The notes below the pieces were generated by a model that saw only the letters and a list, made by a program, of their open reading frames with translations, was not told the origin of the DNA and did not search any database. Shown here in pieces: positions 20,372 to 44,208 of a stretch of DNA of 64,000 bases. Both the position numbers and the translations under genes were made by a program. Every line of letters starts with the position of its first letter. The stretch's first letter is position 1. The stretch is from contig JANYGX010000002.1 in the NCBI GenBank assembly GCA_025362295.1, positions 1 to 64,000 of the forward strand, read 5' to 3'. This stretch comes from Sphingomonadales bacterium (lineage in GTDB: Bacteria > Pseudomonadota > Alphaproteobacteria > Sphingomonadales > Sphingomonadaceae).

Positions 20372-20442
20372 GAGGGTTAGCCATGGTCAAAATTATCCGA
20401 CTTGACAACCTCTGTCGAATTTCGTTTACGCAACTCGGGCCA

Positions 20443-20460
20443 CGCTACCCCAACGTAGCG
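20443..20460 (+). promoter_or_regulatory. Hairpin in the serC leader (candidate serC RNA motif)
   Basis: CGCTAC (20443-20448) and GTAGCG (20455-20460) form a perfect six-pair stem with a CCCAAC loop, ten bases before the GAAAGGAG ribosome site. A TTGACA at 20402-20407 is a plausible -35. A structured leader called the serC motif has been described upstream of serC in alphaproteobacteria; whether this hairpin belongs to it needs a covariance search. Confidence 0.5.
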
Positions 20461-20484
20461 CTTATTCTCTGAAAGGAGAAACTA

Positions 20485-21621
20485 GTGATTGATTCGATTA
20501 TTGCGCGGCCCGTGAGCCGCCCGGCAAACCCCAATTTTTCATCCGGCCCTTGCGCTAAACGTCCTGGTTGGGCTTTGTCAGCTCTTGCTGATGCGTCGCT
20601 TGGGCGGTCACACCGTGCCAAGCCGGGTAAAGCCAAATTAAAAGCAGCCATTGACAAAACGCGTGCCATTTTAAACGTGCCTGAAGATTACCGAATCGGT
20701 ATCGTGCCAGCCTCCGATACGGGTGCTTATGAAATGGCCATGTGGTCCATGCTTGGTGCCCGGCCGGTCACCATGATGGCATGGGAAAGTTTTGGTGCTG
20801 GCTGGGTTACGGATGCGGCAAAACAGCTCAAACTTGCCGATTGTACAGTTATTGAAAGTGCCTACGGTTTACTGCCTGATTTAACAGCTGTTGACGGAAA
20901 TTCTGATATTTGTTTCACTTGGAACGGCACAACATCCGGCGTGCGGGTACCAAATGCAGACTGGATACAATCTGACCGTCAAGGCCTTACGCTTTGCGAT
21001 GCCACATCTGCCGTATTTGCCATGGATTTGCCTTGGGATAAGCTGGATGTTGTGACCTACAGCTGGCAAAAAGTGCTTGGTGGCGAAGGTGGTCACGGAA
21101 TGCTCATTCTTTCCCCACGGGCTGTAGACAGGCTGGAAAATTACAAGCCCGTTTGGCCGCTACCAAAGATTTTCCGGCTGACATCTGGCAGCAAACTCAT
21201 TGAAGGTATTTTTTCTGGTGAAACCATAAACACGCCGTCCATGTTGTGCGTGGAAGATTATATTGACGCACTGGATTGGGCGGCCTCCATTGGTGGGTTG
21301 CCAGCTTTGATCAATCGGTCCGAAGCCAACTCGCACGCTCTGCAAACTTGGGTTGATAAAACGCCGTGGATTGAGAATTTGTCAGCGGTTGAAAACACCC
21401 GTTCCTGCACATCCGTGTGTTTGAAACTGGTAAACACATCAGTTGATCCGAAGGCTTTGGCAAATTTGCTTGAAAAAGAATCGATAGCCTATGATATCGG
21501 GGCGTACCGCGATGCACCGCCGGGCTTGAGAATATGGTGTGGGGCAACAGTGGAAACCACTGATATTGTGGCACTGACAGAGTGGCTCGATTGGGCATAC
21601 GCCAGCCTCTTACGCATTTAA
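20485..21621 (+). CDS. serC: Phosphoserine aminotransferase
   Basis: Makes 3-phosphoserine from 3-phosphohydroxypyruvate and glutamate, the second step of serine synthesis. The 378-residue PLP protein is the longer alphaproteobacterial form, opening with [15 protein letters not shown]. It shows [24 protein letters not shown] (PLP Asp) and [15 protein letters not shown] with the Schiff-base Lys. The start is GTG at 20485, fixed by GAAAGGAGAA just upstream. serA follows after 63 bases. Confidence 0.95.
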
Positions 21622-34442: not shown

Positions 34443-36482
34443 CTACGTATGCCGCTGCCTCTTGCCCCGATGCTTGATGGAACGCTTAGGCCTGACCTTT
34501 GCGGTCTCTTGCGTGCCCTCACCCACAACCACCTCGAACTGTAGCCCGCCTGAAACGGGTTTTGCCTCGATCAGCTTGAGCGCCAGTTGCTGGCCCATGT
34601 GATAGACAGTGCCGGTTGTGTCCCCCTTAAGAGTCAGGCTTTTTTCATGAAATGTAAAATAATCCTGCCCCAATGAGCCTATGGGCACCAGCCCATCACC
34701 GCCGATTTCATCGAGCGTTACAAACAGCCCAAACTTTGTCACACCGGTGATGCGTCCGGGGAAAATCTCACCGGTGCGCGCCGACAGGTAGGCCGCCACA
34801 TAGCGGTCGATGGTATCGCGCTCGGCGATCATGGCGCGTCGCTCGGTTGATGAAATATGCTCACAGGTCTTATCGAGGGTCACCACGTCCGCATCGCTCA
34901 TACCGCCGTCGCCAAGCTTCAAACCGGAAACCAATGCACGGTGGATCATCAGATCGGAGTAGCGCCGAATCGGCGAGGTGAAATGCCCATAGGATGGCAA
35001 CGCCAAACCAAAATGCCCCAGATGTGCCGTGCCATAATACGCTTGTGTTTGAGTGCGGAGCACAATCTGTTGCACCAGCGCTGCCACATCGGTGTTTTTG
35101 GTTTTTTCGAGAATGCTATTGAACATGGCGGGTTTAAGCAGTTGGCCAAGAGCAAACGCCTGATCAAGCGATTCAAGAAAATCTTTCAGTGCCAACAATT
35201 TTTCGCGGGTTGGTGGTTCATGTATGCGGTAGACCACCGGGTTTTTCAGTTTCTCAAGTTGCTTGGCGGCAGCCACATTGGCCATGATCATGAAATCTTC
35301 CACAACCCGGTGCGCATCGAGATGCGGCCGCGCGGCGATACGCCGGATGACGCCTTGCTCATCAAGTTCAACCCGCCGTTCCGGCAAATCAAGGTCAAGC
35401 GGTGCACGCGCATGGCGGGCTTTGGTGAGAGCAGACCAGGCACCCCAGAGATTTTTAAGATAAGGCACATGCTCGTGTTGTTCCTGCGCCATTTCATAAG
35501 CGAGGTTGGCGGCAGAACGCATCAGCGCGCGGGTGAATTTATAGCTCAGCATTTTGCCTTCTGCATCAATATGAATATGTGCAGCGAGGCAGGCACGGTC
35601 AAGCTCCGGCATCAGCGAACACACATCCGCCGACAATATTTCCGGCAGCATCGGCACGACCCGATCGGGAAAATACGCCGAGTTGCCGCGCGCGCGCGCT
35701 TCGGCATCAAGGCTGGTGCCAGGGCGCACATAGTAGGACACGTCAGCAATCGCCACGATCAAATTCCAGCCCCCATTGCCATCGGATTCCGCCCATATGG
35801 CATCATCATGATCGCGGGCGTCAGCCGGATCGATGGTGATGAGCGGAACGTCACGCAAATCTTCCCGCTCACCAAGTGGCTGGTGTGCTGACATTTTAGC
35901 TTCGGCCAAAGCTTCATCAGGAAAACGGGTTGGCAAGCCGTGCTGATGAATGGCGATCAGCGACATGGAGCGTGGTGCCAGCGGTGAACCAAGCCGCTCA
36001 ATCACCTTGACCATTTGCATGCCCAACTTCTGATTTTTGCCTGTGGGTGTCGCCAGCACCAGCTCGCCGTGCAGAGCTTCGGCAAGATCGCCCGGCAGAA
36101 TCATAAAGTCCATGCGCAGACGCTTGTTGGTGGGCTCGAGCAGAGTCTGGGTTTTATCGACGCGCACAACACCAAGGATGTTATCCGGTTTTTTCTCCAG
36201 CTGCTTCAGCGGATGCGCGCGGTAGCGGCCCGATTGCTTCTGCTCAATACGGGCAAGCACACGATCACCGAAACCCAGTGCGCAGTTTTTTTTGCCGATC
36301 CGCGATTTGCGTTCAACAATCAGAATACGCGGTGGTCTCCCGTCACCACTCCACTCCTCTGGCTCGCCCATAGGGTCACCATCATCGGTAATGGCCACCA
36401 CTTTAAGAGTCATGAGTTTGTCGAGAGTAACAGCAGGCTTTGTTTGTGGGGAAGGTTTATCAGAATGTTGGTTTTTTTTCAT
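34443..36482 (-). CDS. rnr: Ribonuclease R, lacking the N-terminal winged helix
   Basis: Processive 3'-5' exoribonuclease of the RNB family. The 679-residue protein has cold-shock/OB regions (ALGFGDRVLARIEQ), the catalytic RNB domain with the metal-binding aspartates in TIDPADARDHDDAIW, and a C-terminal S1 domain (FPGRITGVTKFGLFVTLDE) with a basic tail. Most alphaproteobacterial forms start with an 80-90 residue winged helix; here an in-frame stop lies five codons before the only upstream Met, so it is absent. No clear ribosome site is seen at 36482. Confidence 0.9.
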   Translation of the reverse strand: MKKNQHSDKPSPQTKPAVTLDKLMTLKVVAITDDGDPMGEPEEWSGDGRPPRILIVERKSRIGKKNCALGFGDRVLARIEQKQSGRYRAHPLKQLEKKPDNILGVVRVDKTQTLLEPTNKRLRMDFMILPGDLAEALHGELVLATPTGKNQKLGMQMVKVIERLGSPLAPRSMSLIAIHQHGLPTRFPDEALAEAKMSAHQPLGEREDLRDVPLITIDPADARDHDDAIWAESDGNGGWNLIVAIADVSYYVRPGTSLDAEARARGNSAYFPDRVVPMLPEILSADVCSLMPELDRACLAAHIHIDAEGKMLSYKFTRALMRSAANLAYEMAQEQHEHVPYLKNLWGAWSALTKARHARAPLDLDLPERRVELDEQGVIRRIAARPHLDAHRVVEDFMIMANVAAAKQLEKLKNPVVYRIHEPPTREKLLALKDFLESLDQAFALGQLLKPAMFNSILEKTKNTDVAALVQQIVLRTQTQAYYGTAHLGHFGLALPSYGHFTSPIRRYSDLMIHRALVSGLKLGDGGMSDADVVTLDKTCEHISSTERRAMIAERDTIDRYVAAYLSARTGEIFPGRITGVTKFGLFVTLDEIGGDGLVPIGSLGQDYFTFHEKSLTLKGDTTGTVYHMGQQLALKLIEAKPVSGGLQFEVVVGEGTQETAKVRPKRSIKHRGKRQRHT

Positions 36483-36744: not shown

Positions 36745-37200
36745 ATGAAAAAAATTTTCGTAGCGATTATTTTTGTCACGCTGTGCGCGGGCTTGTCTGC
36801 CCATGCACAAGTGGTCACGCAAACAACAGGTTTGCAACTTGGCTCGTTTGTTTTTAGCGGCAGCCCATGTTCTATATCTTTAAATCCTATAACGTCAGCG
36901 CGCACCGTAACAAGTGGTAGTGCACTCTTGTTGCCAAGTGGCACACCCGCAACAGTCGCAAAATTTTCAGTGACCGGTTTGCCAAATCAGGTGGTGACCA
37001 TAATTCTGCCTTCAAGCATCATCGTAAACTCAGGAAGCGGACCACCAATGACTGTTGTGCCGGTGCTCAACGGTCCGGTCAGCCGCACGCTCTCACCAAG
37101 TGGCACCATCACCTTTCAGGTTGGTGCCGATATATCCCTGCCTGCAGGCACGGCTGGAAATTATGCGTATAGCGGGTTTTATTCCGTTACAGTGAATTAA
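36745..37200 (+). CDS. DUF4402-like secreted protein (pilin-like)
   Basis: A 151-residue protein with a signal peptide (MKKIFVAIIFVTLCAGLSAHA). The beta-rich, Ser/Thr/Gly-rich mature chain (LGSFVFSGSPCSISL, FSVTGLPNQVVTIILP, YAYSGFYSVTVN) resembles DUF4402 proteins, thought to be surface or fimbrial subunits. It keeps only one Cys in the mature part. The start at 36745 puts the signal at the N-terminus. It opens the surface locus ahead of the chaperone and usher genes. Confidence 0.7.
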   Translation: MKKIFVAIIFVTLCAGLSAHAQVVTQTTGLQLGSFVFSGSPCSISLNPITSARTVTSGSALLLPSGTPATVAKFSVTGLPNQVVTIILPSSIIVNSGSGPPMTVVPVLNGPVSRTLSPSGTITFQVGADISLPAGTAGNYAYSGFYSVTVN

Positions 37201-37337
37201 ATTTCCTTTTGAAAATACGGCCGTTTGTTTTGGCTGCAAAACTAAAACATCCTTAATTTTTTGCTTACCAGGTTATTTGGCAAGTCTTTAACGCTGCCTG
37301 AGCTAGTTGTGTCTTGTTTGGCTTAACTCAACTAAAA

Positions 37338-37352
37338 GTCCTCAGGAGGGAC
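37338..37352 (+). promoter_or_regulatory. Shine-Dalgarno in a small hairpin, first copy
   Basis: GTCCT-CAGGA-GGGAC can pair as a five-pair stem (one G-T pair) with the ribosome site AGGAGG in its loop and 3' arm, seven bases before the ATG at 37360. The identical 15 bases precede the downstream paralog, although surrounding bases differ. Confidence 0.5.
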
Positions 37353-37359
37353 AATACAC

Positions 37360-37950
37360 ATGAAAAATACAATCACAAAAATCTTGCTACTGAGCGTTGC
37401 TGTTTCATCATTCGCAAGCGTTGCCAATGCTGATACGTTTTCTGCTGCTACAATCGGTGCTACTGTTGTTGCACCAGTCGTTGTTTCAGAAAAGCGCGGC
37501 TTGAACTTTGGTACAGTGGCCCCAGGTGCCGCTGGTGGTACAGTCACCATTCTGAACGGTGCTGGTGTAACCGCAACAGGTGCAGCGCTCACCAACTATC
37601 CATCAACACGTACGACAGCAGGCGCCATTATCCTTGGTACAGCTTTGCTGAACACAGGCGTCATTCTCGCCGTTGGTTCCGCTGCCACAGCCAGCACACC
37701 GGTCAGCCAAATCGTACTGCCAGCAGTAGTATCAACACTGACAGGCTGCGATGGTACCGGCACATCGCCAACAGTTGACACTTTCACCAGAGCACCAGCC
37801 GCTGCTGTAACAATGCCAGCCGCCGCTGCCGTTGTTGCCGGTGCAGCTTCTGCTGTTCAGGTTGCTATCGGCATTGGTGCAACATTGCACATGAACGTCG
37901 GTAACACTGGCACATGCGCTGGTACATACACAGTGCAAATGGATTACTAA
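37360..37950 (+). CDS. DUF4402 domain secreted protein A
   Basis: A 196-residue protein with a signal peptide ending at ANA-D. The beta-sandwich mature chain has the DUF4402 features RGLNFGTVAPGAAGG and a C-terminal GTYTVQMDY. Two cysteines (130 and 186) may form a disulfide. Ala, Thr, Gly and Val dominate, as in pilins and spore-coat-like subunits. It is very similar to the next gene and has its own strong terminator at 37962-37986, so it can be made at higher level than the chaperone and usher. Structural surface subunit is the likely role. Confidence 0.85.
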   Translation: MKNTITKILLLSVAVSSFASVANADTFSAATIGATVVAPVVVSEKRGLNFGTVAPGAAGGTVTILNGAGVTATGAALTNYPSTRTTAGAIILGTALLNTGVILAVGSAATASTPVSQIVLPAVVSTLTGCDGTGTSPTVDTFTRAPAAAVTMPAAAAVVAGAASAVQVAIGIGATLHMNVGNTGTCAGTYTVQMDY

Positions 37951-37961
37951 AAAAATAAACG

Positions 37962-37986
37962 TGGGGGCAGCCAAAAGCTGCCCCCA
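37962..37986 (+). terminator. Rho-independent terminator after DUF4402 protein A
   Basis: TGGGGGCAGC and GCTGCCCCCA form a perfect 10-pair stem with loop CAAAA, followed by TTTTCT. It lies 12 bases after the stop codon and is one of the strongest terminators in the window. Confidence 0.92.
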
Positions 37987-38168
37987 TTTTCTATTCTGAT
38001 ACAAATACACAGCGCATTCATAAATGACGCATTATAGAGCTGATAGCTTAAGCGCATCGCTGCTATAAAACCATTTCATTTTTAATATTAATGTTTCGTT
38101 TACCACTTGGGTTGGTAATATTTTAATCCCTTCTGCGTTATCAGTATTACGTCAAGTTAATAGTAAAC

Positions 38169-38183
38169 GTCCTCAGGAGGGAC
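38169..38183 (+). promoter_or_regulatory. Shine-Dalgarno in a small hairpin, second copy
   Basis: Same 15 bases as at 37338-37352, six bases before the ATG at 38190. The AGGAGG site is in the loop and 3' arm of the potential hairpin. Confidence 0.5.
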
Positions 38184-38189
38184 AAACAT

Positions 38190-38780
38190 ATGAAAAATAC
38201 ACTCAAGAAAATATTGATGGTCAGCGTTGCTGTTTCATCATTCACAGGATCAGCGTTCGCTGGCACTTTTGCAGGGGCCACTATTGGTGCAACAATTATC
38301 GCTCCTGTTGTCGTTTCACAACAACGCGGTTTAAACTTTGGTACAGTAGCGCCTGGTGCAGCAGGCGGCACAATCACCATTCTGAATGGTGCCGGTGTCA
38401 CGGCTACAGGTGCAGCGCTTACCAATTATCCATCAACACGTACGACAGCAGGCGCGATTATCCTTGGTACAGCTTTGCTGAACACCGGTGTTATTCTTGC
38501 TGTTGGTTCTGCTGCCACAGCCAGCACACCTGTCAGCCAGATCGTACTGCCAGCAGTAGTATCAACGCTTACTGGTTGTGATGGTACCGGCACATCGCCA
38601 ACAGTTGACACCTTCACCAGAGCACCAGCCGCTGCTGTAACAATGCCAGCGGCTGCCGCTGTTGTTGCCGGTGCAGCATCAGCTGTGCAGGTTGCGATTG
38701 GTGTTGGTGCAACACTACACTTGAATATCGGCAATACCGGCACGTGCGTAGGTACATACGCAATACAGATGGATTACTAG
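38190..38780 (+). CDS. DUF4402 domain secreted protein B (paralog of A)
   Basis: A 196-residue paralog of the preceding gene. Residues 63-171 are identical in sequence, while the signal peptide (SAFA-G) and ends differ. Cys130 and Cys186 are kept. Many codons in the identical block differ silently (for example Val, Gly and Ala third positions), so the protein sequence is held by selection rather than by very recent copying. It has its own terminator (38794-38815), then the chaperone gene. Confidence 0.85.
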   Translation: MKNTLKKILMVSVAVSSFTGSAFAGTFAGATIGATIIAPVVVSQQRGLNFGTVAPGAAGGTITILNGAGVTATGAALTNYPSTRTTAGAIILGTALLNTGVILAVGSAATASTPVSQIVLPAVVSTLTGCDGTGTSPTVDTFTRAPAAAVTMPAAAAVVAGAASAVQVAIGVGATLHLNIGNTGTCVGTYAIQMDY

Positions 38781-38793
38781 AAAATTTTAATCG

Positions 38794-38815
38794 GGGGCAA
38801 TCTTGCGATTGCCCC
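38794..38815 (+). terminator. Rho-independent terminator after DUF4402 protein B
   Basis: GGGGCAATC and GATTGCCCC form a 9-pair stem with loop TTGC, followed by TATTTTTT. It lies between the second pilin-like gene and the chaperone, so it would attenuate transcription into chaperone and usher. Confidence 0.9.
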
Positions 38816-38843
38816 TATTTTTTGAATTGGAAGGAGACAGCCG

Positions 38844-39719
38844 ATGATTGTTCGGTTTTTTTTAAGGCTTTTTGAAGCGATTAACCTTAACAGGGTTTAC
38901 ACCATAGCCGCACCACTCAGTGCGGTTTTTCTGCTTTTAATGCCAAAACTTGCGGTCGCCAACGGACAAGTGCTTATTGCGCCTTACCGCGTGGTGTTTG
39001 AAGGACCAATGCGGGTGCAAGAGGTCGCAATACTCAACACCGGAGACAAACGCACCACCTATCGCATCAGCCTAGAAAATAAAATCTGGAACGAGTCCAA
39101 GCAAGGCTATGACACTGTGACAGAGCCACGGAATGGTGAGCGCTTTGCAGATCAGATGATTCGTCTGTCAGTAAAAGAGGTCACGCTTGACCCGCAGGAA
39201 TCGCAGAGCATTAAAATGCAACTTCGCAAACCTGAAGGTGTTCAAGAGGGTGAGTACCGCACTCACCTTGCAGTGCGGTCGGTTGCAGAAATACCTGAAG
39301 TGAAAGAAAAACCAAAGCCTGGCACCCTGACAGTAAACCTTGTTCCGATTTATGGCCTGTCAATTCCAATCTTTGTGCGCGTTGGCAATTTGCAAGCCGA
39401 GGCTAGTCTTAAGTCGACCAGGTTCATGCTTAACATCGATAAGGTCGAAGTGTTTAATGTTGTGTTGGAACGTAAAGGTGATCGCACCATTTACGGTAAT
39501 CTTGATTTATTCCATCAGGCAAGGTCTGGTAAATGGGAGAAGCTGGCACGCTACAACGCTCTGCCACTGCTTTGGCCATATCCGGAGCGATCGTTTCAAC
39601 TGGGCACAGCACCGGAAACCGCAGCTATCATAAAATCAAGTCCAATTAAATATGTGTATACGGAAATTGATGCTGTCAACAAAGAATTGCCGTATCACAT
39701 AGAAGGTATGCTGAAGTGA
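38844..39719 (+). CDS. PapD-like periplasmic fimbrial chaperone
   Basis: A 291-residue protein with an N-terminal signal-anchor (ending near LAVANG) and a two-domain immunoglobulin-like chaperone layout. Strand patterns LIAPYRVVFEGPMRVQEVAILNTGD and VKEVTLDPQESQSIKMQLR correspond to the first domain of PapD-type chaperones, which complete the fold of pilin subunits by donor-strand complementation. It is longer than classical PapD (about 240). GAAGGAGAC precedes the ATG. It follows the pilin-like genes and precedes the usher, supporting the role. Confidence 0.8.
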   Translation: MIVRFFLRLFEAINLNRVYTIAAPLSAVFLLLMPKLAVANGQVLIAPYRVVFEGPMRVQEVAILNTGDKRTTYRISLENKIWNESKQGYDTVTEPRNGERFADQMIRLSVKEVTLDPQESQSIKMQLRKPEGVQEGEYRTHLAVRSVAEIPEVKEKPKPGTLTVNLVPIYGLSIPIFVRVGNLQAEASLKSTRFMLNIDKVEVFNVVLERKGDRTIYGNLDLFHQARSGKWEKLARYNALPLLWPYPERSFQLGTAPETAAIIKSSPIKYVYTEIDAVNKELPYHIEGMLK

Positions 39720-39747
39720 GATGAGCCAAAGATAAGGACACAGCCGC

Positions 39748-42700
39748 TTGGCTGTCAGCACACCAGTTTTGTATAATAAGCGTTGGCGCATGGTCTGTCA
39801 CTATGGACCATGCATCAGCGCTGCCATGCTGTGGGCAACCATGCCGGCGCATGCAGACACTGCAAAACTTATCCACGAAAGTGAGATGAGTTTTGTCAGT
39901 TTGCATTTGCGCGAATATATCCTCAAGGATGCTGTCAACATTTATGGCAAGGGCGATGACACTTGCCTCGTTCTCAGTGATTTTTTAGCAGGTGTTGAAT
40001 TCCCCATAACGGTGGACCGTCAAAATCAGAGCGCGAAAGGCTGGTTTCTGAACGAAAGCCGTATTTTCTTGCTTGATTATGCCCATCAGATGGTGATGGT
40101 TGGCGGGGTTAACAAGCCGCTAGAGCCTAACAGCGTCATAGCGACAGAAGACGGCCCATGCGTAAAGCTTAAAACACTCGCCAGCTGGTTTCCGGTGAGC
40201 TTTACTTACCAGCCGAAAGATGGGGTTGTCACACTAGAATCCCGTGAACGGTTACCGCTTGAGCAACGCCTCGAGCGCGAAAATTTGCGTGCGCAAATTG
40301 CCAGAAACGTCGCTCCGCATGATGATGAGAAACTGATTAAAGCCCAGCGCATTCCATACCGCTGGATCAATATTCCAACAATAGATTTAAGCGCCAGTGC
40401 GGCCTTCAATCACGAGAATGGCAAAACCCGTTTTACCCCTGTGTATAACGTGGCGGCTGTTGGTGAACTCGCCAAGATGACAGCGGAGGGTTTGTTGTTT
40501 AGTTCGAGCAATGGCAAGCCGGACGCTTTGCGATTGAGACTGTTTCGGTTTGATTCAGTTGGAAAAGTTTTCAGTAAAATTCCTGGTATTACGGAATTTA
40601 CTTTGGGTGATGTGTCGTCCGGCACCAACACGCTGGCGACTAGCGGCGGTCGTGGTCGCGGTGTGTCGGTGTCTACATACCCGGCCAATGTTCCGCAAGA
40701 GTATGACCGCACCACGTTGCGTGGTGATATGCCGAAAGGTTGGGATGCTGAACTCTACCGCAATGGTGCGCTGCTGGCGTTTGTTGAACCGAATGATACG
40801 GGCCGGTATGAGTTTAAAGATGTGCCCATATTGTTTGGCGAGAATGCCTTCAGGATTGTGTTGTATGGTCCGCAAGGCCAGCGCAAAGAAATAACCAGTG
40901 CTGTCAACACTGGCAACATCATCGCACCACGCGGTAAAATTTATGCGCGCGCCTCGGTGTTGCAAAGTGATCTCAATCTCATCGATATTTCACGTAAGCC
41001 AACCAGCAGTATTGCCGATCGCGGTTCTGTGCGTGTTGATGCTGATGTGCGCACGGGCGTGCTTAAAAACCTGTCGCTCGGCACATCGGTTGATAGCTAC
41101 GTGAGTGGCGGCGAACGGCTGTGGTTTGGCGGCCTTTCAACTCAAACATCGGTTGGCCTGACAGGGTTGGAGCTTGAGGCCGTTAAAAAATCGACTGGTG
41201 GCCTTGCTGTGCAGGGGCTGGTGAGCCGACGCTTTAACAATGTTGGTGTTCGCCTTCGTTATGCTCGCTTTCTGGATAACTTCACGAGCGACCGGGTGGA
41301 TGCCAACACACTCTCCCGCTTCGATGGCAGCGTTGATAGTAGTCTGAAATTTAAAGATGGTTTGGTCATTCCGGCATCGCTTCGCGTGCGTTACGAAACA
41401 TTCAGGCAAGGCAGTGCGCGACTCGAAATCAATCAGCAATCTTCGCTGAGTATGTTCTCGGCGAGGCTTTCCAATGATTTGATGGTTGTCAATCAGAACA
41501 GTGCAACATCGGTGAGCGGACAGTTGCTACTGAATTCGCACATTGGCAACTATAATGTGCGTGCACAAAGCGCCTACACAGTATCGCCGTCCCCCCGTTT
41601 TCAGGATATTCAGGCCTCGTTCGATAAATCTCCTGATGATCTCAACAGGCGTTGGTTTTATTCCGGCAGTCTAGGCTGGGGTTTTGTCAATAAGGTGGCT
41701 TCCGCCAGCCTTGGTGCCAACCGGCGTTTTGACAAGTTCAATATCGGTCTTAATGCGCTGGCAGATACGCGCGGCTCGGTTGGCTTTGGCCTCAATATCT
41801 CGACATCATTTGGTCGCGAACCTATTTACAATCGCTGGCGGGAGACCTCAAACGCACTTGGCAATTCTGGCTCTGTCGTTGCGCGCGTGTTCGAGGATAG
41901 CGATGGCAGCGGTCGCTTCGGGCCGGACAGCCGCATTATTCAGGGTGCGCGTTTCAACGTGGATGCTGGCAATCCCACTCGTAATGTAGCCAAGGGCGGC
42001 GTGACCGTGATTGATGGCCTCGCACCCTACACGGCAGTGAACTTTCGTGTTGATCCGGAGAGCCTTGATAACCCTGATCTTATGCAGCCGGATGATATCA
42101 ATACCGCGATCATTCCGCGCCCAGGCACCATGGGTATTATCGATATTCCATTGCGTATAAATGGTTCTATTGAGGGTCAGGTAGATATTGGCGTTGGCGC
42201 AAACAAGCACGCCCAAGGCGGTATGAACATCGAGATTGTCGATAGCGCAGGCAAGGTTATTAAAAAAGGCCGCAGTGAATATGATGGCTATTTCCTCATT
42301 CCCGGCGTGCCGGTTGGCAAGTACAGTGTGCGGCTGTCGGCTGATCAACTGAAGATACTGGATGTTGGCAGTGTGCCAGCCAAACCTGTCGAGGTAACGC
42401 GCAAAAACCCCTATCCGGGTAGTGTTTATTTCAGACTTGGGGCAGGCGGGGTTGATGCACAAGCTTCGGCGCACATCACACCTGTGCGTTTTGAAATTGA
42501 TGATGTGCAGGCGACTGCGGCGCACACAGCTGTGCGACGTGTTTATTTCGCCAAGCGCAAGCGTTCTCATCATCATCATCATCATAGTGCGCAGCACCCG
42601 CCCCATTATCCAACACTGGGTCCGCCATCGGGCCATATCTTTGATGATGACATGGTCTTTGCGGCAACGCCAGACGAGCGTATTCCTGTTGCGCCTGTTT

Positions 42701-42846
42701 CCAATGATGATGTATTACCGGTGGATGTTGCCCGCACCGTTTTGCAGCAAGATGCGTTTCCCACAGCATTTTCTGATGCCGAGCAACAGTTGGCCATGCT
42801 GGTGTCGGGCATCAAAATGCGGGGACTGCGCCGCCAAGTAGATTGA
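39748..42846 (+). CDS. Usher-like outer-membrane protein with C-terminal carboxypeptidase-regulatory-like domain
   Basis: A 1032-residue protein starting at TTG (39748), supported by AAGGAC nine bases upstream; the signal peptide ends at MPAHA. Residues about 40-150 form an N-terminal domain (LSDFLAGVEFPITVDR, GWFLNESRIFLLD). A long beta-rich region, about 200-780, alternates short strands as in outer-membrane ushers (PKGWDAELYRNGALL, YEFKDVPI, AFRIVLYGPQG). An SdrD-like segment (EDSDGSGRFGPDS, about 715) and a carboxypeptidase-regulatory-like domain (about 809-890, YFLIPGVPVGKYSV) follow. A natural His6 run lies at 941-946. Placed after the chaperone, it probably exports and assembles the DUF4402 subunits. 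It is not a close PapC type. Confidence 0.75.
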   Translation: MAVSTPVLYNKRWRMVCHYGPCISAAMLWATMPAHADTAKLIHESEMSFVSLHLREYILKDAVNIYGKGDDTCLVLSDFLAGVEFPITVDRQNQSAKGWFLNESRIFLLDYAHQMVMVGGVNKPLEPNSVIATEDGPCVKLKTLASWFPVSFTYQPKDGVVTLESRERLPLEQRLERENLRAQIARNVAPHDDEKLIKAQRIPYRWINIPTIDLSASAAFNHENGKTRFTPVYNVAAVGELAKMTAEGLLFSSSNGKPDALRLRLFRFDSVGKVFSKIPGITEFTLGDVSSGTNTLATSGGRGRGVSVSTYPANVPQEYDRTTLRGDMPKGWDAELYRNGALLAFVEPNDTGRYEFKDVPILFGENAFRIVLYGPQGQRKEITSAVNTGNIIAPRGKIYARASVLQSDLNLIDISRKPTSSIADRGSVRVDADVRTGVLKNLSLGTSVDSYVSGGERLWFGGLSTQTSVGLTGLELEAVKKSTGGLAVQGLVSRRFNNVGVRLRYARFLDNFTSDRVDANTLSRFDGSVDSSLKFKDGLVIPASLRVRYETFRQGSARLEINQQSSLSMFSARLSNDLMVVNQNSATSVSGQLLLNSHIGNYNVRAQSAYTVSPSPRFQDIQASFDKSPDDLNRRWFYSGSLGWGFVNKVASASLGANRRFDKFNIGLNALADTRGSVGFGLNISTSFGREPIYNRWRETSNALGNSGSVVARVFEDSDGSGRFGPDSRIIQGARFNVDAGNPTRNVAKGGVTVIDGLAPYTAVNFRVDPESLDNPDLMQPDDINTAIIPRPGTMGIIDIPLRINGSIEGQVDIGVGANKHAQGGMNIEIVDSAGKVIKKGRSEYDGYFLIPGVPVGKYSVRLSADQLKILDVGSVPAKPVEVTRKNPYPGSVYFRLGAGGVDAQASAHITPVRFEIDDVQATAAHTAVRRVYFAKRKRSHHHHHHSAQHPPHYPTLGPPSGHIFDDDMVFAATPDERIPVAPVSNDDVLPVDVARTVLQQDAFPTAFSDAEQQLAMLVSGIKMRGLRRQVD
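42568..42585 (+). repeat. (CAT)6 tract encoding His6
   Basis: Six CAT codons in a row near the 3' end of the usher-like gene encode six histidines, followed by further His-containing sequence (SAQHPPHYPTLG). It may bind metal or vary in length by slippage. Confidence 0.85.

Positions 42847-44208
<1,362 letters not shown>

Follow-up and report, generated by a model that had tools for sequence, protein, structure and literature searches.

What kind of system is encoded by the five plus-strand genes at positions 36745-42846 of a 64,000-nucleotide stretch of DNA from a Sphingomonadales bacterium (contig JANYGX010000002.1, positions 1 to 64,000; hereafter the window)? A first-pass annotation had described three secreted DUF4402 proteins, a PapD-like chaperone and a 1032-residue usher-like protein, and had suggested a non-classical chaperone-usher surface locus. 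All five genes were found at these coordinates, and direct reading places a signal-like sequence at the N-terminus of each product. We conclude that the locus is a real, widespread and undescribed variant of the chaperone-usher pathway, and that it very probably encodes a complete fibre system from a divergent clade that lacks annotation. All features of the locus given below lie on the plus strand.

The largest gene (39748..42846, TTG start) encodes the 1032-residue protein. It is not identified as an usher by Pfam or NCBIfam, a phmmer search against the PDB gave chance-level matches only, and PF00577 (Usher) has no match anywhere in the window genome and one, below the cut-off, among the 19 sequences of the homologue alignment. 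An AlphaFold2 model built from a 57-sequence alignment (predicted local distance difference test, pLDDT, 76.4) shows an N-terminal periplasmic domain (residues 47-165, 39886..40242, pLDDT mostly 85-93), barrel strands 1-6 (residues 207-309, 40366..40674), a plug-like beta-domain (residues 318-388, 40699..40911), barrel strands 7-24 (residues 398-690, 40939..41817) and C-terminal beta-domains (residues 697-883, 41836..42396). Conservation within the family is highest in a stretch of the plug-like domain (GWDAELYRN, GRYEF, YGPQGQ). The last part of the model (residues 899-1032, 42442..42843, pLDDT mostly <50), which includes a His-rich run, is of low confidence and, by alignment, absent from the usual relatives of ~900 residues. 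A barrel of 24 strands with the plug after the sixth is the architecture of the PapC and FimD ushers.

In a Foldseek search of the PDB, the best 18 matches of the model were all FimD or PapC, with E-values from 1.6e-27 to 1e-12. Immunoglobulin (Ig)-like domains followed at 3e-9, and no unrelated barrel, LptD for example, did better than 4e-6. For the FimD pore 3ohn, the target-normalised template modelling score (TM-score) was 0.67 at 10% identity. The alternative that the protein is no usher at all, but a transporter or a large surface protein whose repeats resemble SdrD and carboxypeptidase domains, is therefore hardly credible: although its sole Pfam match is to CarboxypepD_reg, below the cut-off (24.9 vs 32.3 bits), and PF00577 fails to match it, a plugged 24-strand barrel is predicted, FimD and PapC outrank all other PDB structures by many orders of magnitude, and a chaperone gene adjoins the usher gene in all 80 loci that we examined among the relatives (L085-L164, taken from 242 stretches found in a one-genome-per-species collection). 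The SdrD-like and carboxypeptidase-regulatory-like domains noted in the first-pass annotation need correction: in the window protein CarboxypepD_reg stays below its threshold and SdrD_B has no match at E<=1, although SdrD_B matches 16 of the 19 proteins in the homologue alignment. These domains are no extra module, because they are located at the position of the C-terminal periplasmic beta-domains of FimD and PapC. Elsewhere in the family, POTRA domains of the ShlB type stand at the N-terminus of two ushers (L064:6776-10447 and L070:7619-11464), a combination not known from described ushers.

The relationship to known ushers could also be detected between sequence profiles. The usher profile scored 72 against the K-12 ushers (14-23 with shuffled columns, 19 reversed), and a broader usher alignment scored 183 against the SCPU-type ushers of Sphingomonadales (E 7.5e-21; shuffles up to 24) and 105 against classical ushers. 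Profiles on both sides, or the broader alignment, were needed for the K-12 signal: single K-12 ushers searched against the Sphingomonadaceae-only profile gave nothing above the LptD, FhuA and BamA controls, and against the broader alignment three of seven gave a signal (51-69; controls up to 31).

The remark in the first-pass annotation that this is no close PapC-type usher is well founded, as PF00577 misses the protein and the family forms its own clade. In a tree of 35 sequences, a branch supported at 100/100 separates all 19 DUF4402-linked ushers from the rest; this remainder, which samples some of the six Nuccio-Baumler clades, consists of six K-12 ushers, EcpC (on a long branch), and SCPU-type and other PF00577 ushers. 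SCPU-type and classical usher profiles score 331 against each other, compared with the 183 and 105 to the DUF4402-linked ushers, and the latter family is therefore the outlier. In a set of 80 related genomes, PF00577 finds SCPU-type ushers, and none of its matches coincides with a DUF4402-linked usher. These results bear on the explanation that the locus is simply an archaic (sigma, Csu-like) chaperone-usher system of the usual kind, with sequences so far drifted that the Pfam models no longer score them above threshold. The usher profile is indeed nearest to the SCPU type, but the fully supported branch, the closeness of SCPU-type to classical ushers and the ability of PF00577 to pick up SCPU-type ushers in related genomes make it improbable, as does the composition of the locus, whose subunits are DUF4402 proteins; PF05229 (SCPU) has no match in the window genome.

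The second component, the periplasmic chaperone (38844..39719, 291 residues, signal peptide), is likewise not called PapD-like by Pfam or NCBIfam, and phmmer against the PDB returned chance-level matches only. The PapD-like assignment of the first-pass annotation is nevertheless borne out by fold and profile. The AlphaFold2 model (pLDDT 87.1) has two Ig-like beta-domains and ends in a strand, with no C-terminal helix; its best PDB match is CsuC, followed by CfaA, Caf1M, YadV and FimC, its fold also resembles that of PapD, and the top 50 are chaperones of chaperone-usher systems except for chains of a WxL-interacting protein (WxLIP), which is the fourth-best match, and one CEP192 domain. The chaperone profile scores 47.7, against 10-17 for shuffled versions, and Pfam PapD_N matches six of 19 homologues. 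Searched against the PDB by profile, the chaperone is nearer to a Gram-positive WxL-interacting protein (EfmWxLIP1, 9i25/9i1y, E 2.7e-4) than to any pilus chaperone (FimC, 0.15).

Clues to how such a chaperone might hold its subunits come from residues counted in two alignments (n=54 and n=19). Arg49 (38988..38990), which aligns with Arg8 of FimC, the classical carboxylate anchor, is invariant in both (54/54, 19/19). The position of the other member of the classical pair, Lys112 of FimC, is occupied by Pro175 (39366..39368), also invariant (54/54, 19/19), and the SCPU-type chaperones have Pro there as well in the alignment. In non-classical chaperones, the anchor Arg has been placed in strand F of domain 1, as Arg89 of CsuC (PMC4654587). 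The corresponding predicted strand of the window chaperone (model strand 136-146) carries Arg139-x-His141 (39258..39266), with His141 conserved in 54/54 and 19/19 and Arg139 in 54/54 and 16/19. His141 aligns with the conserved Arg of the SCPU-type chaperones and Arg139 lies two residues earlier, in a register that is uncertain at ~16% identity. Judged from these aligned residues, the carboxylate anchor is mixed classical/non-classical. The best fold match, CsuC, is what a drifted archaic system would give, but an invariant Arg8 equivalent, and a His aligned with the Arg of SCPU-type chaperones, count against one.

Are the genes a unit, or only neighbours in one genome? Co-occurrence of the homologues, on which the earlier proposal depends, is pronounced. 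The chaperone gene is directly upstream of the usher gene in 80/80 loci, and a DUF4402 gene precedes both in 77, the contigs of the remaining three beginning at or near the chaperone. Additional searches covered 289 genomes of the class, 80 relatives and 349 genomes of the phylum. A single-protein search of the genome contigs gave no match, and an alignment of close relatives was required as the query; it led to the 242 stretches mentioned above. Among the class genomes, 20 of the 289 contain an usher homologue, as do 15 of the 80 relatives, the window genome included. Matches of nearly full length occurred in eight of the 349 phylum genomes, and four of the eight lie outside the class; most phylum-level matches of the usher profile cover only the C-terminal Ig-like or plug domain. 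All 27 tested ushers with a DUF4402 match on the same contig have that match within 5 kb. Usher and DUF4402 co-occur in 11 of the 289 class genomes against 0.9 expected (Fisher p 5e-13), a value that is only indicative because the genomes are phylogenetically related.

The DUF4402 proteins themselves differ in how well they fit PF14352 (cut-off 25.2 bits). The small protein encoded first (36745..37200, 151 residues, signal peptide; 57.7 bits, E 2.5e-15) has Gly at -14 from its C-terminus and a last strand SGFYSVTVN, and is probably a minor subunit. Subunit 1 (37360..37950, 196 residues, 28.1 bits, C-terminus GTCAGTYTVQMDY) and its paralogue subunit 2 (38190..38780, 196 residues, 25.2 bits, exactly the cut-off) barely reach the threshold; they are probably the major subunits. 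These two share 89% protein and 83% DNA identity, and 73 of the 98 differences among 588 DNA positions are at third codon positions, from which it follows that selection keeps both copies as proteins. The duplication takes in leader and terminator, as 37253-37990 and 38088-38821 align at 80% identity.

The C-termini of the subunits resemble those of pilins. Among 85 distinct subunits of relatives, Tyr is at -2 in all 85 and Gly at -14 in 84, the same signature as in FimA, FimF, FimG, SfmA and ElfA. Subunits 1 and 2 of the window keep the motif but end one residue earlier, with Gly at -13 and a final Tyr (37909..37947 and 38739..38777). Strand F of CsuA/B has also been described as one residue shorter than that of classical subunits (PMC4654587), and this is a further point on the side of a drifted archaic system. 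Other DUF4402 proteins were observed outside the main set. In loci with two DUF4402 genes, the first one (L102:5819-6334, with similar genes in L131 and L142) is more divergent and has an N-terminal CxxC (QCQLC); its product is possibly a distinct minor subunit. The window genome contains a fourth, orphan DUF4402-like secreted protein far from any usher (L183, G000:C2:36995-37399), just under the Pfam cut-off, whose C-terminus, GTYTGQVNIMMDYQ, shows the Gly(-14)/Tyr(-2) signature. One genome of about 0.9 Mb (G282) shows a striking expansion of subunit genes, with 32 DUF4402 matches and two ushers of this family.

Each of the paralogous subunit genes is followed by a strong terminator-like hairpin with a T-rich tail, as the first-pass annotation had noted: one after subunit 1 (37961..37987, -23.1 kcal/mol) and one between subunit 2 and the chaperone gene (38793..38816, -18.0 kcal/mol). 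Of the relatives' 77 loci, 72 have such a hairpin behind the last of their DUF4402 genes, compared with 22 of 231 random 130-mers, and the layout is therefore beyond chance. Conservation of this layout supports the earlier suggestion of a high subunit-to-usher ratio; the ratio itself, an excess of subunit over chaperone and usher, would be a consequence of it. Matches to the promoter consensus were at chance level (nine, with 9.4 expected) and were not used.

By its match with the architecture of known chaperone-usher systems, the locus would be expected to work as follows. The DUF4402 proteins would be exported to the periplasm by Sec, where the two-domain chaperone would cap each subunit by donating a strand, with the C-terminus of the subunit held in the cleft between the domains. 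Chaperone-subunit complexes would then be targeted to the N-terminal domain of the usher, the plug would be displaced, and the subunits would be threaded outward through the 24-strand pore to form a polymer held together by donor-strand exchange. The two near-identical major subunit genes, each with its terminator, would be transcribed in excess of the chaperone and usher genes, and the resulting fibre may serve in attachment. Alternatively, the DUF4402 proteins could pass through the usher to the surface singly or in short chains, without a fibre. Most modules of the relatives consist of only subunit, chaperone and usher, with no conserved tip-adhesin gene, and fibre formation is something that we infer, both of which leave some room for this explanation. 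However, single-subunit chaperone-usher loci do form fibres, for example Caf1, and two near-identical major subunits together with a conserved terminator imply a large subunit excess, as for a polymer. Secretion without a fibre is thus unlikely, though somewhat less so than a drifted archaic system.

Several observations weigh against a complete fibre locus. The usher model is of moderate confidence (pLDDT 76, and about 59-73 in the plug). DUF4402 profiles align with those of SCPU and classical pilins only over the last 14-28 columns, and weakly (13-26; shuffles 10-17). As the similarity is weak beyond the last strand, an incomplete Ig fold is what we infer for the subunits, and no fold homology is claimed for them. 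The window chaperone has Val110 where its relatives have Pro (53/54, 18/19); in an alignment made with FimC and SCPU-type chaperones, that Pro lines up with theirs, and it may correspond to Pro59 of CsuC, which has been described as invariant across the chaperone-usher superfamily (PMC4654587). The window also has no gene for a separate two-domain tip adhesin. As a separate observation, a 343-residue protein encoded directly downstream of the usher in another locus (L060:11732-12763) has DUF4402 in its C-terminal third only and is laid out like a two-domain tip adhesin, and a long open reading frame resembling it is found at L082:11764-12777; the window has no such gene.

The setting of the locus varies. 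The host genome (2.59 Mb) belongs to the Sphingomonadaceae, the family of Sphingopyxis and Aquisediminimonas. In 64-65 of the 80 Sphingomonadales loci, the module is just downstream of mnmG-rsmG-parA-parB, a chromosome-partition neighbourhood some 3-8 kb from the usher on its upstream side, which also contains mnmE in 61. In the window the module is flanked instead by rnr (34443-36482, minus strand) on the upstream side and eno (open reading frame 42865-44208, plus strand) downstream, both named from their translations, and parB of this genome is on another contig. Rfam yields a single match for the whole window, a serC leader RNA at 20433-20485 (RF00517, 45.7 bits).

The locus had been singled out as a poorly described system, and this is supported by the literature searched, in which no mention of DUF4402 or PF14352 was found. 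No NCBIfam model covers the usher or the chaperone beyond stray weak matches. That standard domain models miss this usher branch would explain why no description was found, and surveys that define ushers by PF00577 will have missed the whole DUF4402-linked branch. The locus suggests a likely function for DUF4402, named as a domain of unknown function, and predicts pili in hundreds of species of Sphingomonadales, which matter as biofilm formers and in biodegradation. How classical and non-classical chaperones came to diverge could be tested with the help of the mixed anchor residues.

Where, then, does the system stand among those already described? Six usher clades are recognised in published schemes, according to a passage of PMC3559732 citing Nuccio and Baumler 2007. 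The DUF4402-linked clade appears separate from the ushers sampled and is a candidate for a seventh. More tentatively, the DUF4402 loci may represent a deep, distinct chaperone-usher lineage outside the six, with its own subunits and with a mixed-anchor chaperone possibly linking pilus chaperones to Gram-positive WxL-interacting proteins. The likeness to the WxL/WxLIP system lies in the profile and fold of the chaperone, and, according to a published prediction, one strand of WxLIP inserts into the WxL protein that it pairs with (PMC10599100). However, that system has neither usher nor outer membrane, its transmembrane helix is absent from the DUF4402-system chaperone, and the subunits gave no WxL match. 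To the alternative pili (CFA/I, ECP), the system is linked by CfaA, which is among the best fold matches of the chaperone, but the EcpC usher falls outside its clade; this comparison covered chaperone and usher. With the classical pili (type 1, P), it shares the predicted plugged 24-strand usher, the Gly(-14)/Tyr(-2) subunit signature and the Arg8 equivalent of the chaperone, and it differs from them in the Pro at the Lys112 position, the DUF4402 subunits and the lack of a sequence match to PF00577. From the archaic, sigma-type pili (Csu of Acinetobacter and the SCPU loci of Sphingomonadales), it differs in that DUF4402 replaces the SCPU subunits, the usher belongs to another clade that PF00577 misses, the chaperone keeps the Arg8 equivalent and has His aligned with the SCPU-type Arg, and a tip-adhesin gene is usually lacking. 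Nevertheless, it is like these archaic pili in the fold of its chaperone, in having them as its closest usher profile, in a Pro-containing motif in the donor-strand region, and in the gene order of subunit, chaperone and usher.

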